Shown: positions 442 to 18,075 of the stretch, in pieces | How the letters are laid out: each line of letters opens with the position of its first letter | How positions within the stretch are numbered: the first letter of the stretch is position 1 | NCBI GenBank assembly: GCA_030612505.1 | Contig: JAUWNU010000005.1 | Span: 1 to 45,338 of the forward strand | From: Methanomassiliicoccales archaeon | GTDB lineage: Archaea > Thermoplasmatota > Thermoplasmata > SG8-5 | Direction: 5' to 3' | Length of the DNA stretch: 45,338 nt | The notes under the pieces: generated by a model | The model's input: only the letters and a program-made list of their open reading frames with translations | What the model was told of the DNA's origin: nothing | The model's database searches: none | Position numbers and translations under genes: made by a program

Positions 442-879
442 ATGGGAATTCGCGTTATTTTGAGCAATGCATTGTCCGAGGACAGTTCCAGCATACAGTG
501 TGAGGTCGATCCTGGTGAGAAGGTCAGTGGATTAATCGATACTGCTGTGGGATACTGGGGACTGGAGAAAGATATTTCTTATGGCGTCAAATGTGGATCC
601 ATAATCCTGCCGCCTGAAAAGGTAATCACCGATAAAATCATAAAAGAAGGTGAAAAACTGGTTGTGGTCGATTCTAACCTGTGGCAGGCAAACCTTGAAA
701 CAGTGAAGAACTGGATAGCTGATAATCTGGATGCAAAACTTGAAGAACTGGAAATGATAAAAAGCATTGAAAAGGGAAGCAATCATACCGAGTTCCTGTT
801 CAAGAATACGAATAAAAGTGATAGACATTACATGATTACATTAAGTAACGGAGAAGTGGAGAGCTATCGCCCATTATGA
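442..879 (+). CDS. Small protein with N-terminal ubiquitin-like (YukD/EsaB-type) fold
   Basis: The protein has 145 residues. The first ~75 have the beta-grasp rhythm of YukD/EsaB-like ubiquitin-like proteins: an opening strand IRVILSNAL, a hydrophilic turn, a second strand ending in a DPGEKV turn, a helix VSGLIDTAVGYW, a strand around YGVKCGSIILP, and the final KEGEKLVVVD strand, as in 'gv.dGd.L.lv' endings. There is no C-terminal Gly-Gly, so it is not an obvious protein modifier. The second half (about 76-145) is helical and then beta, and I do not recognise it. It is followed 14 bases later by a pilin-like gene on the same strand and faces the secretion operon. In bacteria this fold accompanies the FtsK/EssC ATPase of type VII secretion; here a HerA/FtsK-type ATPase lies 2 kb away. 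The fold is inferred from pattern only. Confidence 0.6.
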   Translation: MGIRVILSNALSEDSSSIQCEVDPGEKVSGLIDTAVGYWGLEKDISYGVKCGSIILPPEKVITDKIIKEGEKLVVVDSNLWQANLETVKNWIADNLDAKLEELEMIKSIEKGSNHTEFLFKNTNKSDRHYMITLSNGEVESYRPL

Positions 880-893
880 AAATAGAGGTTTGA

Positions 894-1445
894 ATGCTGC
901 AAAGAAAATTGTTTTCAGATGAAAATGCAATATCATCATTTTCCCTGATGGCCATAATTTTGTTGCTCTTTGCAAGTTTTTCCGTATCATACCTTTCATA
1001 TGTCACCCATATTGATTCCAATTATAGACTGCGCATGGAGGATATCACCAAGATGGAACTCAAATCCCTGGAAATTATTCGTGATTTGGAGTATCATGCA
1101 GTTTTTCTAGCCAGGGAAAAGATTCAGGAAGGAAATGAAAATGATTTTGAGGATGATTATTATGACTACATTGAAGAGATGGCAGAAGAAGGTTTTGATA
1201 TCTGGCTAGGGGGAGATGTGAGAGCTACTGTCAATGGCGTATATGCGGTCATTGGCGGAACCGTCCGGGAGAATTACACTGTTTCCCTTACTCCTTTAGA
1301 CAATGGTACATACCTTGTTTCAGGTTCCTTCAATGTGACCATAAGCAATCTGAGGACCGACCTTGTTCTGAAGAAGGTAGTGAACTTCGAAAGACAAATT
1401 AGTACCGCTGACCTGACCTATGCAGGCGGCCTGATTCTACCCTAA
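894..1445 (+). CDS. Pilin-like single-pass membrane protein
   Basis: The protein has 183 residues. A short charged head (MLQRKLFSDENAISSF) is followed by one hydrophobic segment at about residues 16-35 (SLMAIILLLFASFSVSYLSY), then a helical stalk and a beta-rich extracellular tail with several N-x-T/S sequons. This is the architecture of archaeal pilins and TadE/TadG-type minor pilins. The Shine-Dalgarno GAGGT precedes the ATG, and the gene is probably co-transcribed with the ubiquitin-like gene. Its stop overlaps the stop of the convergent Ig-repeat gene (shared CTAA, 1442-1445). No family was recognised, and a class III signal peptide cleavage site is not obvious. Confidence 0.6.
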   Translation: MLQRKLFSDENAISSFSLMAIILLLFASFSVSYLSYVTHIDSNYRLRMEDITKMELKSLEIIRDLEYHAVFLAREKIQEGNENDFEDDYYDYIEEMAEEGFDIWLGGDVRATVNGVYAVIGGTVRENYTVSLTPLDNGTYLVSGSFNVTISNLRTDLVLKKVVNFERQISTADLTYAGGLILP

Positions 1446-2869
1446 CTTATGATTATAAAATATTGGGGGGATTCGCTGACATTATCTGGGATATCCCTGG
1501 CTATTATTTTATAAATGACAGTTCCGGCAGATGAGAAGGTCATATCAATGGAATATAGATCGCCACTGACAAGATTCATCTCGAACTCGACTCCCGAAAT
1601 AACTAGTCTCACATATTCCACACCATTCAAATCAGTCACGGTGGCACTGAAAGTAACAGTCTCATTCACAGTCCCGGGATTTGGAGATGCCGATACGCCA
1701 CTTATCACCGGTGGGGTGGTATCCTCTATGATGAAATTGTAGGGAGAGGTGACTCCCCAGTTCCCTGAGGGGTCAATGGCAGAGAACACATATGAGTAGG
1801 TGCCAGTAGGTATAATTGTCTCGCTGTATGTCCATTCTTTCCCTGTAGTGTGGGTCATATGGCGTGATTTAGTTCCAGCTGGGGAAGTGATATTGATATA
1901 AACTTCAGCCACTTCATGATCATCCAAAACATCCACATAAAATATGATATTTTCACCGCTCTCCTGAGGATTCTTGTTTATCCTTACATTGGACAGATCT
2001 GGAGGTTCAATGTCCTTGATTGTAATGGTATAATCATCTGTAAAATCTATACGGTCAAAAATATCCGTGGCCCATACCTTATATGAATACTCGCCAACCA
2101 TGGTGTAGGTTGTTTCATGATAATACTGTAAACCTGGACCCTTCAACATGGTGGTGGTTATCTTTTCTCCATCAGGGTCGGTGAGGGAACAAAAAACACG
2201 CCTTATATTATCGCCTTCCACATCCACGGTTATATTAACTCGCTTATCGAGAATTTGAGGATCTGGGTCATCTGAAACATCACTGATAGATGGAGCCTCA
2301 CTGTTCCCGTACAGCAGCTGTTTGCCCTCATCATCATCTGGAGAATAAAATACAATGTCTGTGAACATGAAAACAAATACCTTGTAGGTCATTTTACCTT
2401 CTATCTCCACATAACGACTGGCCACTCCAAAATCCTGATTGGAATATAATGACAATTTATTTACATATGAATTCTGGGGATTCTCAAGAAGCTCCTCCAA
2501 GTCTACATTGGTCTGATTTCCTATCTGTAATGGCTGAATATTGGTTCCGAATCGCATGGGTATGTCCATATCGCCAGACGTAGCTCTCATATAACTTTCA
2601 TAAAAAGTGAATTTATAGATATCACCGTCAACCTTGCCTGGCAGGTAGAATGCCCGGTAGGAATAATATCTATCAAAGGTGAAATTGACAGTCATCTCTC
2701 CATTTATCCCGTCCAGTCTCTTGATGACTCGATTCACCTCCTGGGTGGCACCCTGGAGAAGATTCTCATCAATGGAATCTGTCTGTACCTGGAAGAACCC
2801 TATGACAAATGACATAATCAATATTGATGTCACAAGCCAGGTCATCTTGGAAAGGACAAAGTCCAGCAT
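1442..2869 (-). CDS. Membrane-anchored protein with three Ig-like repeats
   Basis: The protein has 475 residues. The N terminus has one pilin-like membrane segment (about 9-27) followed by a helical stalk. A beta-rich region of about 170 residues comes next, then three tandem Ig-like/HYR-type domains (about 205-475) beginning with DPDPQIL, EPPDLSN and TTPPVISG. Each carries Val-Asp-Val-type strands and a YSYKVWATD-like closing strand. It is the last gene of the leftward secretion operon: its ATG overlaps the stop of the HerA-like ATPase gene (TGATG), with GGAGAT as Shine-Dalgarno. It is probably an outward-facing structural or adhesive part of the machine. There is no C-terminal anchor. Confidence 0.6.
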   Translation of the reverse strand: MLDFVLSKMTWLVTSILIMSFVIGFFQVQTDSIDENLLQGATQEVNRVIKRLDGINGEMTVNFTFDRYYSYRAFYLPGKVDGDIYKFTFYESYMRATSGDMDIPMRFGTNIQPLQIGNQTNVDLEELLENPQNSYVNKLSLYSNQDFGVASRYVEIEGKMTYKVFVFMFTDIVFYSPDDDEGKQLLYGNSEAPSISDVSDDPDPQILDKRVNITVDVEGDNIRRVFCSLTDPDGEKITTTMLKGPGLQYYHETTYTMVGEYSYKVWATDIFDRIDFTDDYTITIKDIEPPDLSNVRINKNPQESGENIIFYVDVLDDHEVAEVYINITSPAGTKSRHMTHTTGKEWTYSETIIPTGTYSYVFSAIDPSGNWGVTSPYNFIIEDTTPPVISGVSASPNPGTVNETVTFSATVTDLNGVEYVRLVISGVEFEMNLVSGDLYSIDMTFSSAGTVIYKIIARDIPDNVSESPQYFIIIS

Positions 2870-4281
2870 CAGCCATCTCCTATTTTCTTACCGTAGAGGT
2901 CACCAAAACCAGAGTCACTTCCCTGGCCTCCACCTTTATCACTGGATGAAAGAGTTTCCTCCCTGGGGAATAAAGTAGCATCCAATCCTGTGTGAAGGGT
3001 CATTCTCGGTCGAACGCATACAAGTTCCATTTTTCTAGTTTTATCATCCATGACCACTGCCAGACCTCGTCTGAATTCCATTGTCGAAACCAATCTGTCA
3101 AAGTCCTTTGTTCCGGAAGTATAGGACTGTTTTGCCATCTTCAAGGCTTCTATATCCGGTGCCGCAGTAACATTGTGGGCGATTATCAGATCTGCCTGCT
3201 TGATGGCACTCTCATGAAGTGCTGATGGCTCCTGGGTGGCCAGTATCAGCGAAAGACCAGGGTGACGCCCCAGCTTGATCCAATCAATCAGAGCATCGGT
3301 GGCAATGGTCTTGCCCTTGGCTGGAAGGAAAAGATGGGCCTCGTCTATCATCATGTACACCAATGGATGTTCCTTTGTGATGTCCTTGGCCACCTTCTCA
3401 TCTATGAGATTTGCCTCGGCCTGCATCTCCAAAGTGGTATAAAGCGTCCTGGCACGCATTAAATGATTGGCTATTATGGATACTATTAGATTACGTACAT
3501 CAAATCCGCCTAGACGTCCCAGGTAACTGATATCCAGGATAGTTGCCCTGCCTGCCTTGATAATGTCTGAGAATGGAGTACCCTCCTTGTCGAAGACCCC
3601 TATGTCCTCCACCATCTGGATGGTTCCCTTGAGGCTTTCTTTGGCCTCTCCGCCATCAAACACATGCTGATTGTCTATTTCCCTGTAAATATCTTCATAG
3701 CCATAGGGTTCGTTCTTTTGCTTAAGGATCCTTATCACATTTATCAGCAAAGTTCCCACAGGGTCAGTTATGGTAAGATTGAACAAATCCAGCCAGTCCT
3801 GGACGCTTATCTCATGCAGCGGAAGCTGGAGAACCTGGTCATAGAGAATTTTATGCCCATCCTTCTCCAATTCATTGATGGCCAGTTTTGGCATGAGGAT
3901 ATGCACATAATCCCCCAATCCTTTCGGCGTTAAATTATTGAACTCTTTCAAGCGTTCTACTTCATAAGAATTGGTATTGGCAGTCTTCAGACTATGAAAG
4001 ACGCTCATTGTATCAATTATAAGAACAGATAGCCGGTTTTTCTGCTGGTCGTCCAGCGTCCCAAATGACTCGGCAATTACACCAAGAGTATATGACTTTC
4101 CGGTGCCTCTCTTTCCCAGAACAAGCATGCAATGGGGAAATGCCAGGTCCAAATGAACCTCTCCAATCTCTTCATAACGACCAGCCGGGTAACTGACTAT
4201 CTTGCCAAGATAACCGCAGCCCCTGATTCCGTATTCATTTATGTCCTTGTCTGTCCTGCCAAATATGACTTTTTGTGCCAT
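2869..4281 (-). CDS. HerA/FtsK-type P-loop ATPase of the pilus-like locus
   Basis: The protein has 470 residues. An N-terminal beta region precedes Walker A GKRGTGKS (about 56-63). Walker B VYMMIDEAH lies at about 308-316, followed by the sensor motif LILATQEP (about 345-352). This order is typical of the HerA/VirB4/FtsK ATPase clade, whose hexamers pump DNA or protein. The last ~30 residues are Ser/Gly/Asp-rich. The gene has a strong GGAGGT Shine-Dalgarno and follows the FlaJ-like gene by 3 bases. It is clearly distinct from the genuine DNA-repair HerA at 24429-25988: it lacks a NurA partner and sits within a secretion operon. A motor role in assembly or export is inferred. Confidence 0.8.
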   Translation of the reverse strand: MAQKVIFGRTDKDINEYGIRGCGYLGKIVSYPAGRYEEIGEVHLDLAFPHCMLVLGKRGTGKSYTLGVIAESFGTLDDQQKNRLSVLIIDTMSVFHSLKTANTNSYEVERLKEFNNLTPKGLGDYVHILMPKLAINELEKDGHKILYDQVLQLPLHEISVQDWLDLFNLTITDPVGTLLINVIRILKQKNEPYGYEDIYREIDNQHVFDGGEAKESLKGTIQMVEDIGVFDKEGTPFSDIIKAGRATILDISYLGRLGGFDVRNLIVSIIANHLMRARTLYTTLEMQAEANLIDEKVAKDITKEHPLVYMMIDEAHLFLPAKGKTIATDALIDWIKLGRHPGLSLILATQEPSALHESAIKQADLIIAHNVTAAPDIEALKMAKQSYTSGTKDFDRLVSTMEFRRGLAVVMDDKTRKMELVCVRPRMTLHTGLDATLFPREETLSSSDKGGGQGSDSGFGDLYGKKIGDG

Positions 4282-4284
4282 TCT

Positions 4285-6351
4285 CTAACCTCCCATTATT
4301 GATTGACTCAGAATTGTAACTATTGCGAAAGTGACTGCAGCAACAGGCAAGGATATTCCAATGGAATATTTTACCTCAATGGGATCATTGCCATTCTGTA
4401 TTCCCACTGCAAAATAGCCTGTTATTCCCACTACCATTAGCAGATAAATACCGATAATAAGCACGAAATCGGAGGGGGCCATCATGGCTGATGTGAAGGG
4501 CAAATCCTGAAATTGATTGTAGAGCATGAAGTAAAGCCCAATGGTGATTCCCATGACAATGGGAGAGAATAGAATGGCAGTTGTTTTCATCATGTCAACA
4601 ACCGAACTCAGCGAGTTCTTTATTTCCTGATCAACCTGAATCATGTCCCTGAGGTAATTGGATATGACAACAATTGTCTGGCCGGCGGTGGCTGCGTCCT
4701 TCTGGACTGCCTCAACCACGGTTTCCATGGTGGCCCTTATTGTTCTGGAATGCACATCTTTCAGAACACCTATGTTTCTGTTGAACAGTATCTCATTGAG
4801 TGGTGCCCTTGTCATTTTCAGGTTGTATGAGATAGTGCCAAAAAGGTCGGCTATAAGGGTACCCTTGAGCGTATCGGCCACTTTCTGGAAGGCTGATTCC
4901 AGCGGCTCACCCTCGGATATACGGTTACCTAATTGGAACAATGCGTCTGGGAATTCTACTTCAAGCTTTTTGGTCTCGTCCCTTTTCTTCTTCTGGTATC
5001 TAGTTGTGGTCAGAAGATAGAAGGATACGCCCACTGCAATACCAACAATTATGGGTGTCACACCAAACATGTCGAAACCTATGTACTCATACACGAATGG
5101 CACACCCAGTATCCCAATGCTCACAGCAAGCACCAATCCGGTAATCGCAATGCTTCGTTTCTGTTTGATGGTGAAGGGGGATGTGATATCTGGCGGAGTT
5201 GTGGTTCCAGGCCTATTGCCTAATACATAATATGAATATACAAGAGTAATAACCGGAAATATAACATCCAGCAGAAGTACAACTGGCAATATGCTGACTT
5301 CTTCCACGCTGGAACCAGCAGCCAGAGTATCCTCCATGCCAGCTCCGTCAAAATTCATCATGTCGCCCATGTTCATGGAAAGCATGGGAAGCATGGAACC
5401 CATTATCAAAGGAAGCAGAACTCCCAGGGCAAACACTATCATGGTGGGCCCACTAAGTGAGGCAGCATAACCTTCCATTCTGGTTTTGGTTCCGGTGAGA
5501 ATAATATCATTGGCCTTATCCAGTGTGCGCTTGAGGCCTTCATCGGTCCTTTCCAATGTAGCTGTCCTGATGGTATACAGGGCTCTTCGGAAATCCTCAT
5601 TCCACTGACCCCATCTCGATGCGAAGTCAACAAGCCCATCCTCTATGGAGGTGTACTTCCTCATCATGAGATCCCATGAGAGTTTTTTAAACTCAGAGGC
5701 AAGCGGTTCATCTGTATGATTTCCAGTAAAAAGAATGGCCTTGTCCAGTGTTGGAGAGAGGCGCATTGACATAACAAGGTAATTAATGGCCTCCGGAGCC
5801 CTTCCAAGACTTTGAATTCTGACCCTCTGGGCTAGGCTCTCGGGATATGTGGCAAAGAATCCCAGCACAATCAATGGGAATATGAAAACAAATGGTATAG
5901 CATACAATAGGGAAGTGCCACCATATATCAAAAATATAGGAATTGTCATGACTGCATTGAGGGCAAATGTGATCAGGGTCATTATCTGACTGAATGCCAA
6001 AACATCGAACTCATCTATGTCCCAGCCCAGAAAATCCACAGAAGCATGAAACTTTTCCTGTTTATAGACTGCTTCTGCCTTTTCAACCTTCTTCCTGGCT
6101 GCCTTGTACTTATCTTCTGCTCTCTTGAACTCCCTGGTGGAATCATCACCCCGGATTCTGGCCTCATTCACTTTTTCAAAGGCTTCATTGGCAGCAAGCT
6201 CGGCATTCTCAAAGGCATCTCTGGTTGCCTCACGTTTTTTCTCCTTCTCGTCCTCGGAAGGACCAGCCGACTTCAGGATGCGCCTGGATAGTGATATATA
6301 CCATGCACCATAGGGTGGTAAATCTCTTTCCAGTCCCTTATTATCATGCAT
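4285..6351 (-). CDS. FlaJ/TadC-type membrane platform protein with two T2SSF-like halves
   Basis: ATG 6351 is chosen (688 residues) because GGAAGGTG lies 6 bases upstream; a GTG at 6360 is the longer option. A basic/charged coiled-coil N-terminal region (about 30-95, Lys/Glu/Ala-rich) precedes roughly ten membrane spans in two blocks (about 115-395 and 410-688). Each block has the helical cytoplasmic domain of type II secretion F proteins, for example the LSPTLDKAILF and GEPLESAFQKVADTL regions. FlaJ of the archaellum also has two such halves. It would form the inner-membrane rotor or platform driven by the FlaI-like ATPase encoded immediately upstream; the two genes overlap by 8 bases. Confidence 0.8.
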   Translation of the reverse strand: MHDNKGLERDLPPYGAWYISLSRRILKSAGPSEDEKEKKREATRDAFENAELAANEAFEKVNEARIRGDDSTREFKRAEDKYKAARKKVEKAEAVYKQEKFHASVDFLGWDIDEFDVLAFSQIMTLITFALNAVMTIPIFLIYGGTSLLYAIPFVFIFPLIVLGFFATYPESLAQRVRIQSLGRAPEAINYLVMSMRLSPTLDKAILFTGNHTDEPLASEFKKLSWDLMMRKYTSIEDGLVDFASRWGQWNEDFRRALYTIRTATLERTDEGLKRTLDKANDIILTGTKTRMEGYAASLSGPTMIVFALGVLLPLIMGSMLPMLSMNMGDMMNFDGAGMEDTLAAGSSVEEVSILPVVLLLDVIFPVITLVYSYYVLGNRPGTTTPPDITSPFTIKQKRSIAITGLVLAVSIGILGVPFVYEYIGFDMFGVTPIIVGIAVGVSFYLLTTTRYQKKKRDETKKLEVEFPDALFQLGNRISEGEPLESAFQKVADTLKGTLIADLFGTISYNLKMTRAPLNEILFNRNIGVLKDVHSRTIRATMETVVEAVQKDAATAGQTIVVISNYLRDMIQVDQEIKNSLSSVVDMMKTTAILFSPIVMGITIGLYFMLYNQFQDLPFTSAMMAPSDFVLIIGIYLLMVVGITGYFAVGIQNGNDPIEVKYSIGISLPVAAVTFAIVTILSQSIMGG

Positions 6352-8278
6352 ACTTGGCACCTTCCAGGAACCAGGTTCTCCATTGTTCCAGGATTATATT
6401 GTAATCAAGATTGTCATTAAGAATGGCATTCTCACGCAATGCCCAATATTTATTGTTCATGCGTGCAACCCATTCAATTCTCAAAAGTTGTGGCTTATCA
6501 TGCTCTCTTGCATACTCCACCGCGTCCAATCGATATCTGGCTCTGGCCTTAATATCATTCAGGGCATCCTCCATAGAAATGCCCCATTTTCTAGCGATTT
6601 CACCGATACGCTCGGATTTGTAATTGAATATATCTGTTTCCATCAGCAGGTCATTATCGCTATCGTACATCATAAGGTCATTGAACTCTCCAGGGACATC
6701 CGATGTCTTGACAGTTTCCGCAATCTGGGTGCAACGCCTCAGCAGCTTTTGAGAGCCTTTGGACTGCGTAAGTGTCTGAACAACTATGATGTCTGTTGCC
6801 ATAAACGATGTCGCCGGGATGCCCATATCACTGGTGGCTCTATCGAAGGTGGCCTTTGCAGAATCAGCATGGAATGTGCCCATGACAGATGAACCTGCAG
6901 TTCCAGTCCTCATTGCCTCATAAAGGGTTCTGGCCTCCTGGCCTCTTACTTCTCCCAATATCAAGGCAGATTCACCCAATCTGAGCGAAGTTCTTAATGC
7001 ATCATCAGCAGTCATCTCACCCTTTCCACCCAAGGTAGACTGGACAAACATTCTCTGAACCTTGTATCCCAAACTCTGCATCTCCGGTACAGGCAATTCC
7101 AGCGTATCTTCGATGGTGAGTATTCTCTGTATAGTTGGGAACTCCAGTAACAGAGCGCCTAAAAGCGATGACTTACCGGAACCCCTACTTCCAGATATCA
7201 GCATGGTACAATGACCCTCGATGAGGAATGAAAGAAGACCCGCCGAAAGAGGAGATACTGTTCCATTATCAATGAGCTTTAGCATGGTCCAGGGGTCGGT
7301 AGAATGCCTGCGGAAGGCTATAGCTATACCATCAGGGCTCAATGGTTTTCCTATGGCGGTTATCCTGGTCTGATGCTGAACAAGGTCTGTTTCCAATACA
7401 GGCATGGCCTCGGAGAATGGTCTGCCACTTTCATATCTGAATCGGGATACCATGCTCTCCACATCTTCATTGCTAAGAACCACATTGGTGACAAACTTGT
7501 CATATAATTCCTTCTGATTCAAACCGCCCATACTGGCATGGACAGAATTCTTCGGGGCCGGGGCATCAACATAGATGTCCTGCATGTACGGGTCTTCCAG
7601 GAAATATTCGAATAGGCCCAGGCCAACTGTGTATCTAGCAAGTATGGAAGTAAGGTTGTCCAATACCTTCATTTCTTCCTCTGGTGTGCGGCCTATTTGG
7701 ATAGCATGCTTGTTTGCTATCTGATATAGTATCTTTTTCCCGAAGGTTTCCACATAGAGCCTGGCTTGCCCTGGCCTGTCCAATTGAATATGCCTTGGCC
7801 GATTTCTCAAGAGTTCTATCTTGGCAAGATGTATGAGCTTCATGTGTTTCGATGGAAGAGAGTATTCCTTTGGTTGAAGATGATAATGAGAGTAAGTGAT
7901 GTCCTTGATAGACCACAGGCTTGCGATGGCATCTCCCACTTTGTATTCCAGTATCTTTTCAGAATTTTCTGGTGGTTCTGGGCTTACCCAAGAATAGGAA
8001 AAGCCAGGGCGAAGATCATAATATTTATCCATTATCTGAATCATGGCTCTATGAACACGTTTTCTGTCAATGGTCAGCGACCCCTTGTTCTCAAGACAGT
8101 TAATTACGCCATCTAGGGTCGTTATTTTACCAGTTACCTTTGCCTTGCTGGCCTTAATAATAGAAGGTGCTTTTTCATCTTCAGTTGAAATGATTTCTAT
8201 TTCCTTCTTTTTGATGTTCGTATCATCTGGGTAAATTTCTTTCGGTTTCTTTTCATCTTGACCAATTATTTTCACCAT
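6344..8278 (-). CDS. FlaI/PilT/VirB11-family secretion ATPase
   Basis: The protein has 644 residues. Its N-terminal ~200 residues form the membrane-platform-binding domain. The RecA-like domain carries Walker A GSRGSGKSS (about 363-371), an Asp box TIEDTLELP (about 388), Walker B SALILGEVRG (about 437-446) and a His box GTFHADSA (about 467), all expected in type II/IV secretion ATPases. The first 45 residues are Lys/Glu-rich and probably unstructured. It hydrolyses ATP to power assembly of pilin-like subunits through the platform encoded next. It is coupled to that gene by an 8-base overlap and follows the Cys-rich gene by 11 bases. Confidence 0.88.
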   Translation of the reverse strand: MVKIIGQDEKKPKEIYPDDTNIKKKEIEIISTEDEKAPSIIKASKAKVTGKITTLDGVINCLENKGSLTIDRKRVHRAMIQIMDKYYDLRPGFSYSWVSPEPPENSEKILEYKVGDAIASLWSIKDITYSHYHLQPKEYSLPSKHMKLIHLAKIELLRNRPRHIQLDRPGQARLYVETFGKKILYQIANKHAIQIGRTPEEEMKVLDNLTSILARYTVGLGLFEYFLEDPYMQDIYVDAPAPKNSVHASMGGLNQKELYDKFVTNVVLSNEDVESMVSRFRYESGRPFSEAMPVLETDLVQHQTRITAIGKPLSPDGIAIAFRRHSTDPWTMLKLIDNGTVSPLSAGLLSFLIEGHCTMLISGSRGSGKSSLLGALLLEFPTIQRILTIEDTLELPVPEMQSLGYKVQRMFVQSTLGGKGEMTADDALRTSLRLGESALILGEVRGQEARTLYEAMRTGTAGSSVMGTFHADSAKATFDRATSDMGIPATSFMATDIIVVQTLTQSKGSQKLLRRCTQIAETVKTSDVPGEFNDLMMYDSDNDLLMETDIFNYKSERIGEIARKWGISMEDALNDIKARARYRLDAVEYAREHDKPQLLRIEWVARMNNKYWALRENAILNDNLDYNIILEQWRTWFLEGAKYA

Positions 8279-8919: not shown

Positions 8920-8935
8920 AACAATGCCTCCAGGC

Positions 8936-11900
8936 CTATTCCTCTTCCTTGTCACTCCTCTGTTTCTTGATATAAAGTATAAACAGCACCGCAGCTACCA
9001 GCAGCAATATTCCAATCATTGACGCTGCATATATTATGGCCATGGTTCCATCATTGTCATTGGCCGGGTCATAATCATCATCTTCCCAGGTTCCGAAATT
9101 CAATCTTTCGGATGCTTGATTGTTAGTCTCGTCCTTCTCGATTATGTAATCCATAGGGTCAACAGTAACATACACTGTTCTTGCTCCAACCGGAGCTGCC
9201 CACTCATAATAAAGCATAGTTTGAACAGATTCATCCAGCTGCGTGATGTTCACCGAATGAAGTAGAGTATCGTTTCCAGCATTGTAGCTTCCATAGAATT
9301 CCACCTCTATTCCAGTCAGATTGCCATAGCCAATGTTCGAGACATTGGCAGTGATGTTCAATATGCCATTGTCATGTTCTGCAATTATCAGGTCGACGGT
9401 GAGGTCCTTGGAAGAAAGCACTGCCAGATTTACTACCTTTTTGTTTTCAGCTTCCTCGGCTTCCATTATATTATCGGTGGGGAAGGCCACTGCATAGATC
9501 TGGTGATTTCCTACAGGGGCCTGCCAGTCCATGGAAACGCTTGCTTCCTCACCATGTCCCAGGGAAATGAATTGACCATCGATGAAGCCCTCAAATGTAT
9601 AAAATTTCACGAATATGCTTTCGGAATCTGCCCTTCCCTCATTCTTGAGCGTCGCCGAAACGGTTGCTCTCTCACCCTCATTGATGAGTCCACTGGATAT
9701 GAACAGGGCAGAGATAGAAATATCTGGAACAAGGGAAACCCTTCTGAAGGCCAGATTATTATCTGGAATAAGGTCGCTTATATTAAGGTAAACGAAAAGC
9801 TCGTGGGTGCCCAGTTCTGCAGTCCAATAGGTGGTCACGGTTATATTTTCATCCATAGCCATAGATGCAATGGTTTTCGTATCAAATAGTTCGCCATCAA
9901 GTGTAGGGTCACCATCATAGAATTCCACCAGGACATTGGACGCAGAAGTATAGCCAACATTCCTGATCATGGCGGTTATAGTAACAGTCTCACCCTGGTT
10001 TGGCTCATTCGGGCTTAGAACTATATTTTCAAAGGATATGGAAACATCCACTGGACACGTGATTGTGCAGTTGAGCCTATTATTGCTCTCAACTATCTCG
10101 GCAATGATATCTTCATAATCAACAATGAAGAATACCCTATGAGAACCGTCTGGAACCACCCAGTCGATGGATATGTTAACTGCCTCATGTCGGCCTATGG
10201 AAGAAACAGGAACCTTTTCAATTAGCATTCCTCCTGTCTCGGGCTCACCATCAAAGAAGCTCACATTGAAGGCCTGGGTAACAAGATCTCCTGTGTTCTG
10301 TATTGTCGCATTTATCTGGACGGTCTCGCCCTCCCTGGCAATAATTCCCGAGGAATTCCCATTCACTAAAAGTGAGCTAGCCTCTATGTCCGGCAGGAAA
10401 TATATGTAAATAGTCACTTGCTCCTCAGTGTATTTGTCGGTGGGGTCTGTAAGATTATTGTAGGTATATACCACAGTGTTCCTGTCAAATAATTCTGTAT
10501 CGCTCCAGAAGTCCAGGAATCCAATATTTGTGACAGCTACCAGCCTTGGTTCACTCCACTCAGCATTGCCCCTGAGGTCAATGGTGGAATAGTAAATACC
10601 AGCCTCTCTTGCACTGGAGATATTGATTACCTGGCTACTCTTCCAGACTACGGCAGCCAGTCCATCAGGATTAACCACCACCTGTGGAAGCTGCACCGGT
10701 CTGGTGGTGTAGTTCATCATCTTGATTTCAGACCAGGTATCAGTGGCAATATCATAAGTGCAGTATTTGATATAGCAATTATCTTCCCAGTCTATTGCCA
10801 GCCAGACCAGAATAACAGTGTCATCATCCACTGCAAGGGAAGTGGAATCCACGCTGAGATTATCGTTTGTAATAAACTTGTAATCAGTCCAGTTGGTGCC
10901 ATTGAATAGCGAATACACTATCTGCTGGTCATCATATGTATTGAAATGCTCGTCATAGTCCCGGGTCCAGATGGATAATACATCACCGTCAGGTAGGCTC
11001 ACCATCTTATTATCGTAATGGAAGCTATTGTGGATTGTCTTGATGGCGGGTGCAGTCCAGTTGGTACCGTTCCACACTGAATACATTGTACGTTGGTCAC
11101 CAGTGGTCATGATGTCGCCACCAATATCATGAATCCAAGTCAGGGTGATATTGTCATCGTTCATCAGCACCATACTGGGCTGCAGGTCAGAACCGCTAGT
11201 CTTGGTATATATGGTGTCCGGGCCATGTACCAGGACATTGTTCTCGTCTATAATAGCGAATTTCATTTCCGCATCATTCATGAAATTGACAAGGCCGATA
11301 CTTGTTGACGTGAGGTCAGTGTTGTCTATCCCTTCATTCCATACTACGAATGCGGAACCAGTCTTATTGTATATCACCTGAGGGTCTATTTTAATTCTAT
11401 TATTGGTTGTCAAGATATCAGAAGGCAACATAATAGAGCCGTCTGCCCTGGCCTGTATCTGATAATTCGGGTTGTGGATACTATTGTTCAGGTCCTTGCT
11501 CCTGACAACAATGTTCTTTCCATTGAAGGTAGCGGTTGATGGTCCAGTTGGGAAGTTGATGGTACCGTCCTCGTCTGCCAGCGAGTCCAGGTCATCTTCT
11601 GGTTTCTCGAATGAAGAACCTCCATCATCTGTTCCCTCGAAGACATCAAATCCCCAGTTACCAAGGTTATATTCACCTTCCCAGAAGGTCCAGGTCTTGG
11701 TGAACCATAGGAATTCAACATAGGCCCCCAATCCAGCTGCCAGGGTCACGTCCAACTCACCATTACAGAATGGACTGAATCCTCCTGCCGTGGTAGTACC
11801 ATGAATGTCAATGGTTGGAGTTTCATATATGAAGCCAGTGTCCAGAGTTAGTGCCGGGCGGCCTTCAATCCAGCCTTCTATTCCGCCGCCTCCAATTCCG

Positions 11901-14314
11901 AAATCTATACCAATACGGATCGCACATCTCAGAGTCAGGCCGAGACCCAGTTCGAATCCAGCCTCAACATAGCCAAATTCCACACCTGAAAGCGTGGCCG
12001 ATATGCTGGCTTCAGTATGCGCCATTGCCGAGAAATCTGCACTTACGTCCACGGTAGCTACAATAACAGGGGGCATAATTGGATACTTAGCACTGAATAT
12101 ATCCCATTCTTTCTCAATGCCAACTTCTGCACCAACAGTGGCCTCGAAGCTCACCAGGTCCAGCATGCTAGCCGGGTTGTCGGCGACATCCATGATGGTG
12201 CCCCATACATCCTTTATGGTTTCGAAGGTCTCCATATATTCTCCGACTATGTCAGTAATATTTGATATGGAATTGGTTATGCCGCTGAAATCCTTCGAGC
12301 TGTCATTGGACTCATTTTCGGCAGCACTTCTTGTTTCATTTAAAGCATTTAACAAATCAGCAGCATTGTCAGGTTTCAATACATGCTTCCACACTTCACC
12401 AATGGTTGTTCCATTAGCAGTGACCGTATCCTTTAACATGGGCCCAAACTGATTCCAGTTTGTTATCAGGTATTTACCTTCCCTGATAAGGTCAAATATC
12501 TTGGTCAGATCCACCTCAATATCCGGAAATCCAACATTTATTGCAGCATCAATATAGGCTCTGCCAGTTACTTCCATACCCATAACACTTGATTCAAGTG
12601 TTTTCTCCTTTCCAAAGGTTATGGAACCGCCGATTGGTATCTTAAGCTCAAGCACATATTTCTCGGATTGCTTATTGTCCTGACCAGCAACATATGGAGT
12701 GCTGTCAGAGGCCGGTGCCTCTTTGCCGTCATTGAGGGTCTGGGGAAGTTCCAGCATCAATGTGAAATAATTCAACTGGGCCTCGGTGTTCCCATTTCCC
12801 CCAGTGGCGTCACCGGATTCCGCAGGAGTGAAGCTATCATCTCTTTTTCCGGTTTCCTTTGCAGTCGCCTTTCTTGCCTCATCAGTATTTTCCATCCAGC
12901 GAGGTGGAAATTCCATGTAAATAGCCGTGTTATAAGGGTCACTTCCAACACCAGCATTATCTATTGCAGCAATGGTGAGGTTGGAGGTGCCATTGATTCC
13001 ACCCATGTTAATGTAAGTTGTGAATATATCGCCAGCCTTTTCCATGAGAATCTGGGTAGGTGGGATGTCACGTTTGTATGGATCCAGCGAAAATTCATCA
13101 TCGCCATACCACAGAAGGGTCTGCCAAACATAGCCATTCTCATCTGTCGCATTTATTGTAAACCTATTGAACACCTCTATGCCCCGGACAAACACACCAA
13201 TTCCAGGGTCAGGGTCATCATACTGCGCTTCTACCGAGTTGATTACCGGTGGAATCTCAATATGCAGATATTCTCTATTATTGTTTTTACCATTGATTTC
13301 GTCAATATTATCGCCATCAATTATTTCGCTGGTCTTATTTTCCTCATCTACTTCATATTCAATGAAATCCACCTGGGCAATTACTTTTCTATTCAATAGT
13401 GTTCTATCAAACGCATCATCATAATACAAATAATCCACAATTCTCCATGGTGCAGGGTCGCCATTTGAAAAACTGGCCGTGACTGCGATTTCCTCATCAG
13501 GGTCCAGATGGTCAATTATTATAGATTCCCCTATCTGTCTGGTCTCATTACGTTCCACAAGATAATCAATGAACCTAACTCTTATGACCCCGTCATCCTT
13601 GCCTATGCCATCTACCCATTTGGATTTTGGATCATCTGTGGCCAGGTTACCAATATTCTTTATCACAGCAGAAACCTGATAACCAGGAGGGACATCGGGA
13701 GTCATCATCGGAGGGCTGTATGCATCAAACACGTCATCAGACACTACATAACTGTCCTCTGGCGGATTGTTAAGCACGGATATGGAGCCAACATATAGAT
13801 CAGGCATCCTAACCTCGCCTTCCTGACCCTTTTCCCTGACAACTACAAAATCAGTGAAACCGATTGTATCCTTCTGGATTATCAAATCCCACTTGCCATA
13901 TCCTTCCAACAGAAAAGCGCTGTTATCTGGAGAAGTTATTGGGATATTAGGGTCAGTGACCACAATATGCTCCCAGGTGCCCCATAGCTTGTATGATATG
14001 GTGGATTGATTCATTCCAGGATGCTCTCCTATTTTATCACCTATCACTATGGAGTCGAGACCTGAAAATCTTGAACTACCAAAATCGAGAGTAACCTCTC
14101 TTGATTCCAATGTACCTTGACCATATACAAAACGAATGGCAGTTACCAACTCATTCATGGCATCCTCTATATCATTTCTGGTCTGTTTTTCTGCATTAAC
14201 ACTCAGACCATGATATACTGCTGGCAGCAAGAAGCCTATAGCAACCACGGTGACAAGTAATTTCATGGGCATTCCCTCGAGACCTCTCATGTCACGACTG
14301 ATTCCTCTTTTCAT
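8936..14314 (-). CDS. Giant pilin-headed surface protein with CARDB repeats
   Basis: The protein has 1,792 residues. Residues ~1-30 contain a pilin-type motif MRGLEGMPMKLL and a hydrophobic helix. The next ~110 residues align with the small pilin of 14354-14866 (shared VY..G, SGLD..IG, TNPNI/TDPNI landmarks). A long beta-rich middle follows, with Ig-like parts, a coiled or helical stretch around 640-730, and WNG-TNW repeats resembling a sialidase-like propeller at about 1000-1300. Four CARDB domains follow (about 1310-1735; recurring EGE-T-V--T and SNN/ENN-type ends). A C-terminal membrane helix (about 1750-1772) ends in IKKQRSDKEEE. Both ends are thus membrane-embedded. The Shine-Dalgarno GAGATGG precedes the ATG. 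Probable role: adhesin or wall-spanning component of the pilus-like machine. Confidence 0.75.
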   Translation of the reverse strand: MKRGISRDMRGLEGMPMKLLVTVVAIGFLLPAVYHGLSVNAEKQTRNDIEDAMNELVTAIRFVYGQGTLESREVTLDFGSSRFSGLDSIVIGDKIGEHPGMNQSTISYKLWGTWEHIVVTDPNIPITSPDNSAFLLEGYGKWDLIIQKDTIGFTDFVVVREKGQEGEVRMPDLYVGSISVLNNPPEDSYVVSDDVFDAYSPPMMTPDVPPGYQVSAVIKNIGNLATDDPKSKWVDGIGKDDGVIRVRFIDYLVERNETRQIGESIIIDHLDPDEEIAVTASFSNGDPAPWRIVDYLYYDDAFDRTLLNRKVIAQVDFIEYEVDEENKTSEIIDGDNIDEINGKNNNREYLHIEIPPVINSVEAQYDDPDPGIGVFVRGIEVFNRFTINATDENGYVWQTLLWYGDDEFSLDPYKRDIPPTQILMEKAGDIFTTYINMGGINGTSNLTIAAIDNAGVGSDPYNTAIYMEFPPRWMENTDEARKATAKETGKRDDSFTPAESGDATGGNGNTEAQLNYFTLMLELPQTLNDGKEAPASDSTPYVAGQDNKQSEKYVLELKIPIGGSITFGKEKTLESSVMGMEVTGRAYIDAAINVGFPDIEVDLTKIFDLIREGKYLITNWNQFGPMLKDTVTANGTTIGEVWKHVLKPDNAADLLNALNETRSAAENESNDSSKDFSGITNSISNITDIVGEYMETFETIKDVWGTIMDVADNPASMLDLVSFEATVGAEVGIEKEWDIFSAKYPIMPPVIVATVDVSADFSAMAHTEASISATLSGVEFGYVEAGFELGLGLTLRCAIRIGIDFGIGGGGIEGWIEGRPALTLDTGFIYETPTIDIHGTTTAGGFSPFCNGELDVTLAAGLGAYVEFLWFTKTWTFWEGEYNLGNWGFDVFEGTDDGGSSFEKPEDDLDSLADEDGTINFPTGPSTATFNGKNIVVRSKDLNNSIHNPNYQIQARADGSIMLPSDILTTNNRIKIDPQVIYNKTGSAFVVWNEGIDNTDLTSTSIGLVNFMNDAEMKFAIIDENNVLVHGPDTIYTKTSGSDLQPSMVLMNDDNITLTWIHDIGGDIMTTGDQRTMYSVWNGTNWTAPAIKTIHNSFHYDNKMVSLPDGDVLSIWTRDYDEHFNTYDDQQIVYSLFNGTNWTDYKFITNDNLSVDSTSLAVDDDTVILVWLAIDWEDNCYIKYCTYDIATDTWSEIKMMNYTTRPVQLPQVVVNPDGLAAVVWKSSQVINISSAREAGIYYSTIDLRGNAEWSEPRLVAVTNIGFLDFWSDTELFDRNTVVYTYNNLTDPTDKYTEEQVTIYIYFLPDIEASSLLVNGNSSGIIAREGETVQINATIQNTGDLVTQAFNVSFFDGEPETGGMLIEKVPVSSIGRHEAVNISIDWVVPDGSHRVFFIVDYEDIIAEIVESNNRLNCTITCPVDVSISFENIVLSPNEPNQGETVTITAMIRNVGYTSASNVLVEFYDGDPTLDGELFDTKTIASMAMDENITVTTYWTAELGTHELFVYLNISDLIPDNNLAFRRVSLVPDISISALFISSGLINEGERATVSATLKNEGRADSESIFVKFYTFEGFIDGQFISLGHGEEASVSMDWQAPVGNHQIYAVAFPTDNIMEAEEAENKKVVNLAVLSSKDLTVDLIIAEHDNGILNITANVSNIGYGNLTGIEVEFYGSYNAGNDTLLHSVNITQLDESVQTMLYYEWAAPVGARTVYVTVDPMDYIIEKDETNNQASERLNFGTWEDDDYDPANDNDGTMAIIYAASMIGILLLVAAVLFILYIKKQRSDKEEE

Positions 14315-14353
14315 TTTACCATCTCTCTGTTTATTTCATATATGAATGTAATT

Positions 14354-14866
14354 TTAATATACCAATCCTACCTCAACCACCCATGAATACATGGCTCCGT
14401 CTCCATCTATATCCTTCCCAAGTGTATATTCATCCACTGTTCTGACCTCTATCATTCTAAGGCCATTACTTAATTCAAACATACCTGTCATGTTTACCAT
14501 GGCAATATTGGGATTGGTAATCATAAAATATTGTTCCACGCCACCATGAACTCTATAACGGAAACTAGACAGGTTGGACCAGACATCATTGGGAGTTCCA
14601 CCAATATACATGTAATCCAAACCAGACACTAATCCACCTTTGAGTTCCATCTCCACCACCCTTACATTACCCGGGCCCATGGAGTAAACATCCCTTACAG
14701 CAGCTTCAAGATAATCCAGTTGCGTGTCTATTGTCTGCTGGGTCTGTTGCACTGAATACACCTCAAGATAATTCCAGGACATAGGAACAACCATGGCAAC
14801 AACAATGAACATTATTAGAAGCTGAAGAGGGAAACCTTCGATTCCCCTCGAATCTATTCGCTTCAT
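14354..14866 (-). CDS. Small pilin-like protein, paralogue of the giant protein's head
   Basis: The protein has 170 residues. MKRIDSRGIEGFPLQLL leads into a hydrophobic helix (about 13-33), as in archaeal prepilins processed at a Gly. The globular part carries VYSMGPGNVRVV, SGLDYMYIGG and MITNPNIA, matching positions in the 1,792-residue protein. There is no C-terminal anchor. The start codon overlaps the stop of the preceding pilin gene (ATGA, 14863-14866). It is likely a structural or minor pilin. No prepilin peptidase gene is present in the window. Confidence 0.7.
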   Translation of the reverse strand: MKRIDSRGIEGFPLQLLIMFIVVAMVVPMSWNYLEVYSVQQTQQTIDTQLDYLEAAVRDVYSMGPGNVRVVEMELKGGLVSGLDYMYIGGTPNDVWSNLSSFRYRVHGGVEQYFMITNPNIAMVNMTGMFELSNGLRMIEVRTVDEYTLGKDIDGDGAMYSWVVEVGLVY

Positions 14867-15306
14867 TTATTCACTGCAATACTCTTGGTGACAACGTTGC
14901 CACCACCAGATACTGTCACTTTGATGAAATCTGAGTTTGTGTTGGGAGGCAATGTGGGGGTTACACCCGTAAAGGTGTATTCACCATTATCATCAGTAAT
15001 CGCCTTCATATCTATACCCATTCCTTCTATGGATATCTCACAACCACTCATTGTTCCCTTGTCATTGTAGGCTATAACTGTAATATCAAATGTTTCATTT
15101 ACAGTATTCACATCAGTGACCATTGTCGGCGTTACCTCTATGTATTCAAGAGGCGGGGTCAAAAGAAACATCCATGACAGTATGATGCCTATGGCAACTG
15201 CTGCAATTACTACCATTATCAGTAGATTCAGCGGTAGCCCGAGTACACCACTGTCATCTGTCCTAATGCTCCGTGGGGTCCTTATATTCTCTCTGTAATT
15301 AGTCAT
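14863..15306 (-). CDS. Pilin-like protein with an Ig/carboxypeptidase-regulatory-like domain
   Basis: The protein has 147 residues. A basic head precedes SGVLGLPLNLLIM and a membrane helix (about 23-47). Then comes a single beta-sandwich domain (about 55-145) with the sequence landmarks of Big/CarboxypepD_reg-like folds: TFDITVIAYND, a Cys-Glu strand, and DDNGEYTFTGVTP. It is the first gene of the long leftward operon, transcribed from the divergent control region. The N-terminal G-V-L-G-L-P motif matches those of the next two proteins, suggesting a shared processing enzyme. Confidence 0.7.
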   Translation of the reverse strand: MTNYRENIRTPRSIRTDDSGVLGLPLNLLIMVVIAAVAIGIILSWMFLLTPPLEYIEVTPTMVTDVNTVNETFDITVIAYNDKGTMSGCEISIEGMGIDMKAITDDNGEYTFTGVTPTLPPNTNSDFIKVTVSGGGNVVTKSIAVNK

Positions 15307-15495
15307 TTATACCACTAGGCATTAAATCCCAATAATGTATTTAGATGTTTCGTAATACATATATATATTATGTTTATAGGATCCAATCTCTGTGATTAAT
15401 CAGGGGTTTTTCTGAATTTTAAGACAATATAAGCCTATATTACCCCCCAAGATATTTATAAAATCATCCTATCAAGTCATCAAGAGGTAGGGAAT
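15307..15495. promoter_or_regulatory. Divergent promoter/control region of the pilus-like locus
   Basis: This 189-base AT-rich region separates the two operons of the locus. A clear TATA box TTTATAAAA (15455-15463) and an AGAGGTAGGG Shine-Dalgarno serve the rightward vWA gene. It holds two inverted repeats: ATGTATT/AATACAT (15335-15341 and 15354-15360) and AATATA-AGCC-TATATT (15426-15441). The first overlaps a possible leftward TATA (minus strand CTAAATACATTA), so it could be an operator controlling the leftward operon. Confidence 0.55.
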
Positions 15496-16959
15496 ATGGA
15501 GCTCAGCATTGTGAAATCGGATAGAGGAGAAATTGCAATCAACCCGGACGATGCATCCCACATAGGTGCCAATGCAGGAGATGTAATCTCTCTCACCCAC
15601 ACCGAAACAGGAACCAGGATTTTAGGAATAATGGGACTTCAAAGTGATATTGAATCAGGTACTGTGGGAGTGAATCCTTTGCTGTTAATTTCTAATGGGC
15701 TCCAGGAAGGAATAAAAATAGACACGAATGTCTGGAAAGATAGCCTGGTTCATATAGATTCAGTGGAACTTGGAATAGATAATCTGGCAGATTCAAAGAA
15801 AAAGGGCGATGTCCTCCAGCGATTGAGAATGAAAGAGACTGAACTTGTCAAATTAATGAAGAACAAGGTATTCCGAAATGGAACTTCTTTTATTTTGAAA
15901 AACTTAAATTTACAAGTAACCATCAACAGCACAAAACCAGAATTAGCAGAGGGACAGGCAGCACAATTCAATGGTATTAGAGATTTTTCCTATACATGGT
16001 CCAATGAACAAAATGATGGCTATGATAGTGTATTAATGATTGACCTTTCCGGCAGCATGGACACAGAAGACATGAGAATGGATGAGACCGCTCATGATAC
16101 TATAAAATCCATTGATTCAAAATTCAAAAGCAAACACGGTGCAGTTCTGATGGAGCGGCTCAAGGATAAGAATGTGGTGTCCAGAATTGACGGAACAAGC
16201 CTTGCAATATTGAATTATTCTCAGAGCCAAAGCAATTCATTTGGCCTTGTTTATTTTAGTGATGAAGGAATTCCTGTTACATTCCCCGACGGAACTGGAC
16301 ATTACAATGCTGGTTCGAATACTCCAGTTGCAGAACTCGGCGAAGCTATGCTGGGAGAAATAGCCAAAAACTGGCATGGACAGACAAACCTAGCAGATGG
16401 TTTGATAAAAACAATAGAGATAGCAAAGGAACTAGATCACGGAAAGAACAAGATGATTACGCTGCTCATGGATGGCAAACCAAAAGATGAAGAAAAATGC
16501 CTTCAGATAATTAATAGTAGAATTGCTCCCAGAAAAGATATGATTATCAATACCCTGGGATACGGTCCAAATATAGATGAAGGTTTTCTATTAGATATCG
16601 CAGAAAAGACAGGAGGAAAATATCAAAAGGTTCAGAATGTTGATGAACTGATTCAGATATTTTCAGATATGGCCATTAAGTTTAAAGTTCATGGGTCCAG
16701 AGAACTGCTTGACCTTCATTCCATCAGAAGAGAAACTGTCAAAGCTGATCCAACAGAGGTTTATTGCAAGAAATGCGGCCAGCATGCATCATTCTTTGGT
16801 AATCATGGCCGGTGGTATTGTGATGAGTGCAAAAAGTATCTGGAGAAGGGAGATTTCAAGAATAAATGCATAAAGTGCAAAAAACCATTGACATTCCTGG
16901 GCAACACAAAAAGATGGTTCTGTTACGATTGCAATGAATTTGATAGAGGAAGCAGGTAA
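15496..16959 (+). CDS. von Willebrand factor A protein with N-terminal barrel and two C-terminal zinc ribbons
   Basis: The protein has 487 residues. Residues 1-90 resemble the double-psi barrel of the CDC48/VAT N domain (GDVISL, then a repeated Ile-Lys-Ile-Asp strand). A vWA domain (about 175-400) has the MIDAS motif DLSGSM (183-188), the GQTNLADGL threonine segment and LLMDGKPKDE. Two zinc ribbons close the protein, each CxxC-x(n)-WYC/WFCxxC (about 423-447 and 456-479); their loops GNHGRW and GNTKRW show they are tandem duplicates. There is no signal peptide, so it is cytoplasmic. It is the first gene of the rightward operon. It could act as a metal-dependent scaffold or chaperone for the machine. 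The barrel call is pattern-based. Confidence 0.75.
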   Translation: MELSIVKSDRGEIAINPDDASHIGANAGDVISLTHTETGTRILGIMGLQSDIESGTVGVNPLLLISNGLQEGIKIDTNVWKDSLVHIDSVELGIDNLADSKKKGDVLQRLRMKETELVKLMKNKVFRNGTSFILKNLNLQVTINSTKPELAEGQAAQFNGIRDFSYTWSNEQNDGYDSVLMIDLSGSMDTEDMRMDETAHDTIKSIDSKFKSKHGAVLMERLKDKNVVSRIDGTSLAILNYSQSQSNSFGLVYFSDEGIPVTFPDGTGHYNAGSNTPVAELGEAMLGEIAKNWHGQTNLADGLIKTIEIAKELDHGKNKMITLLMDGKPKDEEKCLQIINSRIAPRKDMIINTLGYGPNIDEGFLLDIAEKTGGKYQKVQNVDELIQIFSDMAIKFKVHGSRELLDLHSIRRETVKADPTEVYCKKCGQHASFFGNHGRWYCDECKKYLEKGDFKNKCIKCKKPLTFLGNTKRWFCYDCNEFDRGSR

Positions 16960-16963
16960 ATCG

Positions 16964-17515
16964 ATGACAGGGCAGATGAAGACCAGGAAGCAATCAGATA
17001 AGGCATCTGCCATGTTTAGAAAAGACCGTTTGCATCTCAATAATGATGGAGTCGCCGGGTATTTTGAAGATTTACCCAAGTTATTATTCATTCTCTTTGC
17101 GGTGGGTTTGTTTGTAACTAGCACAGTTATTGTTTACGGATCATACAACCGATTCAATGAGCACACACAGATGATGGACAATCTCAATACCTTCTCAAAT
17201 GATGTTCTGAACTGGGACAATATTACACTTAATAATGAAGGTGTACTGAACGGTAATGCATTGAATAATATGGACATAGATGATTGGGAATACCAGTTCC
17301 CACCTGAAGTAAAATATTTTGAATATCAGATCATAGTCATGGACAGGAGCCAGTATAATCTGACATATGGTCTCGAAAGGCAGGATTATGGGCCCATAAG
17401 CACCGAGGCACGCCCTGTTGGAGTGGACATATATTCGAAGTCCACCCCGGTTGTAATTCTGGATGCCGATGGGAATTACAGGGCTAGTTATCTGGTGGTG
17501 GCAATATGGAGGTAG
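16964..17515 (+). CDS. Pilin-like single-pass protein
   Basis: Start 16964 (183 residues) is chosen over ATG 16934 because AGCAGGT lies just upstream and it begins 4 bases after the vWA stop. A basic head of about 45 residues contains DGVAGYFEDLPKLL, leading into a hydrophobic helix (about 45-63). The extracellular part (about 65-183) has N-x-T sequons and a beta-rich tail. The G-V-A-G...P-K-L-L motif resembles the N-terminal motifs of the leftward pilins. No family was recognised. Confidence 0.6.
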   Translation: MTGQMKTRKQSDKASAMFRKDRLHLNNDGVAGYFEDLPKLLFILFAVGLFVTSTVIVYGSYNRFNEHTQMMDNLNTFSNDVLNWDNITLNNEGVLNGNALNNMDIDDWEYQFPPEVKYFEYQIIVMDRSQYNLTYGLERQDYGPISTEARPVGVDIYSKSTPVVILDADGNYRASYLVVAIWR

Positions 17516-17520
17516 GTCGA

Positions 17521-18075
17521 ATGAAAAAACGATGGAATGATCATGGTATGCTATCCCTGCTTGATGCAATGTTGTTCTTTGTTATCATGCTCATCACTTC
17601 TGGCCTTTTTCTACAAATCGGCATTACCATGTCAGAAAGCGCAGAATTGATAAGAGACCAGCAAAGCGCAGAGTACAATGATTATGCAAGACTGGCCTGG
17701 ATGAGTTCCAGCATACCTCTAGTGACATATAATGACACTCTAGGCATGCAACATATACTTAATAATCTCAGTGTGCAATTTCTGATAATGGAAGAATTTT
17801 ATCTAATGAAGAATGAAGGTCTTAAACCAGAATATATTCATTTCAATGAAAATATCCATATGCAGGCAAACCTCATCATAGAACCAATATACGAATGGGC
17901 CTTCTGGGCTGAATCCGGTAGTATCAAGCTATCAATGAACAGGACATCTATTAACACTGAGCCAAACTTTGAAGATTTTAAAGATAATCTTGGTTATGAG
18001 GTTCATTCATCTTCATGGAACTCATTGATGTTCGGAGGAGATGGGGATATCAAAATGAATTTTTATACCTGGTAA
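17521..18075 (+). CDS. Pilin-like single-pass protein, last gene of the rightward operon
   Basis: ATG 17521 (184 residues) follows the previous stop by 5 bases and has GGAGGT 7 bases upstream; the ATG at 17506 only supplies that Shine-Dalgarno. A short basic head and HGMLSLLDAMLFFVIM begin a membrane helix (about 8-32). A helical stalk (SAELIRDQQSAEY) and a mixed extracellular domain follow. The layout resembles TadE/TadG minor pilins and the pseudopilin at 894-1445. A hairpin terminator follows. Confidence 0.6.
   Translation: MKKRWNDHGMLSLLDAMLFFVIMLITSGLFLQIGITMSESAELIRDQQSAEYNDYARLAWMSSSIPLVTYNDTLGMQHILNNLSVQFLIMEEFYLMKNEGLKPEYIHFNENIHMQANLIIEPIYEWAFWAESGSIKLSMNRTSINTEPNFEDFKDNLGYEVHSSSWNSLMFGGDGDIKMNFYTW

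Follow-up and report, generated by a model that had tools for sequence, protein, structure and literature searches.

A HerA-fold ATPase associated with a type IV pilus locus of Thermoplasmata

The window analysed here is an entire contig of 45,338 nucleotides (G000:C32; GenBank JAUWNU010000005.1) from the genome assembly of a Methanomassiliicoccales archaeon (2.25 Mb, 85% complete), and it was compared with 200 genomes sampled from the class Thermoplasmata. Positions 442–18075 are filled by 13 open reading frames (Table 1), which comprise the core of an archaeal type IV pilus (T4P), a second ATPase of the HerA fold, a ubiquitin-like (Ubl) protein and a protein with a von Willebrand factor A (vWA) domain. 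The genes listed in an earlier sequence-only reading of this DNA are real and lie as described, and we focus on its claim that they form one compact machine. Gene order and strand indicate three transcription units rather than one. The minus unit, pil3-pil2-CARDB-Cys-FlaI-FlaJJ-HerA-Ig, holds eight genes spaced by −20 to +39 bases, confirming the tight overlaps noted earlier. It is divergent from the plus unit vWA-pil4-pil5, from which it is separated by 189 bases, and a second plus unit, Ubl-pil1, is convergent with the Ig gene. This HerA subfamily is, by comparison across genomes, specifically tied to the T4P, via FlaI and the double platform protein FlaJJ in some lineages and via the prepilin-like protein pil3 in others.

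Table 1. Genes of the pilus block, positions 442–18075 of the window (TM, transmembrane segment)
Feature	Coordinates	Strand	Remarks
Ubiquitin-like protein (Ubl)	442..879	+	Ubl domain and conserved ~60-residue tail domain, C-terminal GG absent; family profile matches ubiquitin (PDB) and PF00240
pil1	894..1445	+	single-pass membrane protein, TM at residue 13, prepilin leader not clear
Ig-repeat protein	1442..2869	-	N-terminal ~175 residues are of the IgN family
HerA-fold second ATPase	2869..4281	-	Walker A GKRGTGKS, Walker B IDEAH; HAS-barrel and TM absent
FlaJJ	4285..6360	-	double T2SSF/FlaJ-type platform, 9 TM
FlaI/GspE/CpaF-type assembly ATPase	6344..8278	-	PF00437 1.2e-24
Cys-rich protein, 8 Cys	8290..8955	-	homologue of FlaI N-terminal domain in fused relatives
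Giant CARDB surface protein	8936..14314	-	PF07705 x4, 3.4e-36; leader RGLEGMPMKLL; C-terminal TM; likely adhesin or tip
pil2, prepilin-like	14354..14866	-	leader RGIEGFPLQLL; orthologues in L035, L038, L079
pil3, prepilin-like	14863..15306	-	carries an Ig/CNA-type domain; always adjoins solo HerA
vWA protein	15496..16959	+	four CxxC (zinc-ribbon) motifs
pil4, prepilin-like	16934..17515	+	orthologues adjoin HerA in L038, L039
pil5, prepilin-like	17506..18075	+	orthologues adjoin pil4 in L038, L039

The second ATPase matches DUF87 (1.1e-9) and HerA_C (1.2e-8). Its AlphaFold2 model (predicted local distance difference test score, pLDDT, 88) has HerA DNA translocases as best PDB matches (TM-score 0.57–0.64), with T. 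kodakarensis HerA at the top. Thus, of the ‘HerA/FtsK-type’ assignment proposed earlier, the HerA fold holds but FtsK/EccC does not. Both Walker motifs are invariant across the 16 Thermoplasmata orthologues that were aligned, while Walker A is present in 61/61 aligned family members; because of this invariance, selection for ATPase activity of HerA can be assumed. Orthologues with at least 44% identity were found in 18 of the 200 genomes, with a clear gap to generic HerA proteins (about 25–31%), and the named records carrying them are metagenome bins assigned to Thermoplasmata, Thermoplasmatota, Euryarchaeota or Methanomassiliicoccales. Contigs were scanned for HerA homologues with an alignment as query, a single-protein query having given no match. 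Distant homologues (31–36%) are widespread in DPANN archaea, mainly without pilus neighbours. A general pilus association of this DPANN family was considered and rejected: with a crude pilin detector no enrichment was seen, pilin-like neighbours being found in 17/459 cases near and 10/324 far (p 0.7). The exceptions are two related DPANN contigs (L131 3678–11272 and L134 2180–9748), in which HerA, FlaJJ, FlaI (E about 1e-168 to the subfamily of the window) and two pilin-like genes lie within about 6 kb. In Nanohalarchaeota-related bins (L112 3595–4908, L114 3562–4875) a 437-residue protein with a prepilin-like leader is encoded 15 bp upstream of a HerA homologue.

The genomic contexts of HerA in Thermoplasmata fall into two kinds. 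Excluding the G022 gene, which lies on a 3-kb contig, 19 copies could be placed, seven adjoining FlaJJ with FlaI and 12 adjoining pil3 far from FlaI/FlaJ. In the former, HerA and FlaJJ are adjacent and co-directional in seven loci from six families (G000, G051, G007, G026, G079 C28, G055 C103 and G010). The FlaI gene beside them is intact in five of the seven, split into two frames in G010 and cut by the contig end in G051. Across the six families the flanking genes vary while FlaI-FlaJJ-HerA stays together, and G079 has the same set, including Ubl, pil2, pil3, pil4 and pil5. The solo HerA copies all belong to one family, f9, and 12/12 adjoin pil3 on the same strand. In several f9 genomes the pil3-HerA pair is followed by a gene for a ~176-residue DUF2378-related protein (L042 2016–2546, with equivalents in L040, L045 and L046). 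In the HerA tree the two contexts lie on opposite sides of a single branch (support 100/99), and G055 and G079 each have one copy of either context. Furthermore, this FlaI subfamily is present in 16/18 genomes with HerA versus 84/182 others (p 0.0008, uncorrected for kinship). Since two contexts exist and the tree separates them perfectly, HerA is, on these comparisons, an accessory module of the T4P rather than a core part. That it is a functional partner of the pilus is likely. The proposed conservation of the neighbourhood is thus borne out for FlaI-FlaJJ-HerA, which recurs in six families, but not for the whole set, as HerA (12 of 19) and vWA are found mostly without FlaI/FlaJ.

The locus core is almost certainly an archaeal T4P system common in Thermoplasmata, as its homologies indicate, and the pilus part of the locus is ordinary. 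The FlaI-type ATPase, the double FlaJ-type platform and the CARDB giant were all correctly recognized earlier. Solved structures nearest to FlaI by sequence are A. fulgidus GspE (2oap), CpaF and the archaellum FlaI. FlaJJ matches PF00482 at residues 192–325 (1.1e-6) and the ArlJ/FlaJ model at 430–689, and a platform of double length is usual among the relatives examined. FlaI relatives (E <= 1e-40) are present in 100 of the 200 genomes, and the parts recurring around them are the Cys-rich domain, FlaJJ, IgN, pil2, pil3, pil4 and giant proteins. Because the Cys-rich domain returns there either as a separate gene or, in many genomes, fused to FlaI, the Cys-rich gene of the window, judged by homology, is a detached N-terminal domain of FlaI and not a new partner. 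Its family was compared with a profile built from hand-picked seeds; an earlier iterated profile had drifted onto FlaI because Cys-FlaI fusions exist.

A predicted prepilin leader (G-x-x-G-x-P ahead of the transmembrane segment, or similar; motif and hydropathy) is clear in pil2, pil3, pil4, pil5 and the N-terminus of the CARDB giant. Both pil1 and the Ig protein are single-pass proteins in which no such leader is obvious. The Ig repeats receive support slightly below Pfam cut-offs (E 1e-4 to 3e-5), and the Ig gene is by its similarity an IgN-family member with added repeats, IgN being a 173-residue single-pass family encoded downstream of FlaJJ in other loci. A candidate prepilin peptidase is a 306-residue frame elsewhere in the genome (G000:C33:33355). 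It is a weak match, reaching 27.4 bits with adjoining pieces joined (PF01478 cut-off 26.5), each piece alone being below the cut-off. The genome also has a second pilus locus (L054 14133–19694, G000:C135) with two FlaI-type ATPases and genes for 337- and 382-residue proteins between them, a layout like that reported for the Cuniculiplasma CdiP pilus. The block is adjoined by a gene for a TPR protein (18114–19439); TPR proteins also occur near FlaI in L066, L076 and L080, possibly only through profile drift.

The Ubl call rests on profiles because the AlphaFold2 model of the protein is too poor to use (pLDDT 55). The window protein alone has no match, but its family supports the assignment made earlier: 5/10 members match PF00240 (best 3.4e-9), and PDB chains of single-copy ubiquitin are found with the family profile at about 2e-6. 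The C-terminal GG required for conjugation is absent from the window protein, which ends in YRPL after an extra tail domain. Similarly, the window protein itself supports the vWA and zinc-ribbon calls weakly (E 0.03 and 0.004), while one relative supports them strongly (PF00092 3e-13). In G015 (L184 9807–11111, G015:C1) Ubl and vWA occur in a single protein whose end is a CxxC zinc-ribbon-like region, so that the two genes of the window are linked by a fusion, and in four f9 genomes Ubl relatives, two per locus, occur together with vWA. A Ubl relative is also found in the G079 pilus locus (L038 3525–4130), co-directional with pil3-pil2. In G066 about 2 kb separate a vWA relative from Cys-FlaI, but the other clear vWA relatives lie apart from FlaI/FlaJ. 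Because the two are fused in G015 and close together elsewhere, these comparisons indicate that Ubl and vWA are a pair forming a second, separable module of the locus. In the four f9 genomes (L185 1514–6182, L186 9268–15038, L187 9118–14700, L188 52–4526) the two Ubl genes and vWA are placed around the gene of a GCS2-type carboxylate-amine-ligase-like protein, which itself carries the Ubl tail domain and in L186 is adjoined by an amidohydrolase. This set is possibly a Ubl-based ligase system. A GCS2-like gene followed by an amidohydrolase-like gene is also found in a genome of the same order (L195 524–4347, G051:C18), where Ubl is absent on the short contig.

Misbinning of the contig was ruled out by its housekeeping genes, canonical HerA and methionyl-tRNA synthetase, which are 84–90% identical to those of same-genus genomes. 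The window FlaI shows 81% identity to FlaI of G066, a member of another family, versus 48–49% to FlaI of same-genus genomes. HerA-linked FlaI proteins do not form a single clade; four changes are found on the FlaI tree and, therefore, gain/loss or transfer is needed. On these trees and identities, transfer of the pilus locus between lineages would be the simplest reading.

Based on these data, we propose the following mechanism. By comparison, the assembly motor is FlaI, together with the detached Cys-rich domain, and the platform is FlaJJ; the two would build the pilus, whose candidate pilins and surface tip are pil2–pil5, IgN and the CARDB giant. A pilin-like protein, with pil3 the likeliest candidate, would recruit a soluble HerA ring or hexamer to the membrane. 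There, at the base of the pilus, HerA may work as a second motor and pump a polymer, DNA being the most likely, across the envelope, by analogy with the Ups/Ced systems, in which T4P and HerA/VirB4-type ATPases encoded in separate loci are both needed for DNA exchange (PMC11868833, PMC9905601). The Ubl-vWA pair might be cytosolic and either scaffold the machine or regulate it, in a manner comparable to that of ArnB, a vWA regulator in archaella. The locus as a whole would then be a single-locus T4P with a dedicated HerA-fold DNA pump, an integrated Thermoplasmata counterpart of the separate Sulfolobales Ups pilus and Ced importer, with a Ubl/vWA control module and without a VirB6-type channel. 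We assign this reading a probability of about 0.22; the narrower proposal, that HerA pumps DNA or another polymer, is tentative and somewhat short of even odds.

Several observations weigh against a DNA pump. No CedA/VirB6-like channel is encoded in the locus, the region searched, where FlaJJ is the sole polytopic protein. HerA itself has no transmembrane segment and its isoelectric point is 5–7; moreover, the HAS-barrel gave no match in pilus-linked HerA, Walker A starting already at residue 51–56 in the 61 aligned family members. The DPANN results show that the HerA family as a whole is not pilus-bound, and HerA is missing from the majority of T4P loci of this type. Finally, a canonical repair cluster of Rad50-like, Mre11, HerA and NurA genes lies 3 kb from the pilus block (21228–27088); a link between the two was rejected, as the cluster is not near other HerA-pilus loci. 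The idea of one compact machine fares accordingly: the adjacency and common direction of FlaI, FlaJJ and HerA in six families and the matching G079 set speak for it, but the absence of HerA from most T4P loci of this type, the 12/19 placed copies accompanied by pil3 alone and the vWA relatives lying mostly away from FlaI/FlaJ do not.

The main rival to polymer pumping is retraction or pilin handling, in which HerA, as a second pilus motor or pilin-handling ATPase in place of PilT, would retract or disassemble the filament or extract pilins from the membrane, and no DNA would be moved. HerA is constantly accompanied either by the pilin pil3 or by the motor and platform of pilus assembly, PilT is absent from archaea (PMC4858521) and a second ATPase, whose role is open, is known in Cuniculiplasma CdiP pili (PMC12448462). 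However, the fold is that of a HerA translocase and not of the FlaI/PilT type, the frequent lack of HerA in T4P loci applies here too, and one ATPase is believed to drive both extension and retraction of the Aap pilus (PMC12448462). We consider such a role possible, although on balance doubtful.

Rather unlikely is that HerA performs a separate task next to the pilus genes, for example in DNA repair or defence, and shares only regulation or mobility with them. HerA proteins are frequently repair or anti-phage enzymes, solo HerA of f9 sits between housekeeping genes, the DPANN homologues have varied contexts, and pilus genes may move between lineages, as the FlaI identities suggest. This is difficult to reconcile with the recurrence of FlaI-FlaJJ-HerA in six families and the pilus-type pilin beside 12/12 solo copies; moreover, no NurA was seen next to pilus-linked HerA copies, NurA being paired with the other HerA of the window.

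The presence of a HerA-superfamily ATPase and a Ubl protein in one locus had also been read as a hint of type VII secretion, with HerA and Ubl exporting proteins past the platform. YukD is weakly matched by 3/10 Ubl relatives (best E 0.08). By contrast, the ATPase matches DUF87/HerA_C and HerA structures, scoring 16 bits against the EccC (EccCb) model (E 0.0025, cut-off 346), none of the locus proteins has a WXG100 domain, and Ubl accompanies vWA also away from HerA, making this hypothesis improbable. The least probable alternative is an ordinary adhesion T4P with HerA as a dispensable accessory lacking a defined mechanical role, e.g. a chaperone or regulator: the core can be complete with HerA absent from the same stretch, as in G048 C36 (L079; Cys-FlaI-FlaJJ-pil3-1241aa-pil2-IgN), but the invariant Walker motifs argue against such a role.

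If HerA is indeed a second motor, its presence in pilus operons of several families, together with the solo HerA-pilin pair in one family, would represent a new class of pilus accessory motor. The HerA-pilus link gives a genetic test that sets DNA uptake by archaeal pili against a non-PilT retraction motor, and the Ubl-vWA pair would add a ubiquitin-like protein to archaeal surface machinery. Within the literature searched, which covered few preprints or subscription papers, neither an association of HerA with DPANN or Thermoplasmatota pili nor one of Ubl with vWA in archaea was described; to this extent, HerA in T4P operons, as recognized here by homology, appears not to have been described earlier.

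Compared with known systems, the locus is closest in its core to other archaeal T4P (Aap, Ups, haloarchaeal Pil and methanogen pili; PMC4858521), with which it shares a FlaI/GspE-type ATPase, a TadC/FlaJ platform, several prepilin-like proteins and large surface proteins, vWA regulators also being known in some loci. It differs in the HerA-fold second ATPase, the Ubl-vWA pair and the detached Cys-rich N-domain of FlaI. The text of the 2016 census names HerA only as a superfamily and mentions neither the HerA-fold ATPase nor the Ubl-vWA pair for T4P loci (PMC4858521). Until 2025, when the CdiP locus with two FlaI proteins, also from Thermoplasmata, was reported, descriptions of archaeal pili included a single assembly ATPase. 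The paper on that locus called two ATPases in one pilus operon unique; both are FlaI-type, however, and the platform is split in two (PMC12448462). Type VII secretion (EccC, EsaB/YukD) likewise combines a HerA/FtsK-superfamily ATPase with a Ubl lacking GG, but the ATPase studied here is not FtsK/EccC, the locus yielded no WXG100 protein, and a T4P motor and platform are present instead. The HerA-NurA repair helicase shares the HerA ATPase fold, whereas pilus HerA has neither the HAS-barrel nor a NurA partner, and the genome encodes the canonical HerA-NurA-Mre11-Rad50 cluster separately. Finally, Sulfolobales Ups with Ced and Thermoproteales Ted (PMC11868833, PMC9905601) also exhibit cooperation of a pilus with a HerA/VirB4-type ATPase. 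Pilus HerA is not a CedB/CedD-type ATPase (CedD 17.6 bits, cut-off 600; CedB 14.9 bits, cut-off 700), and whereas the ATPase of Ced and Ted belongs to a separate system resembling type IV secretion, one that has a pilin of its own and a CedA/TedA channel, the present locus encodes no channel and places a HerA without transmembrane segments inside the T4P operon itself.

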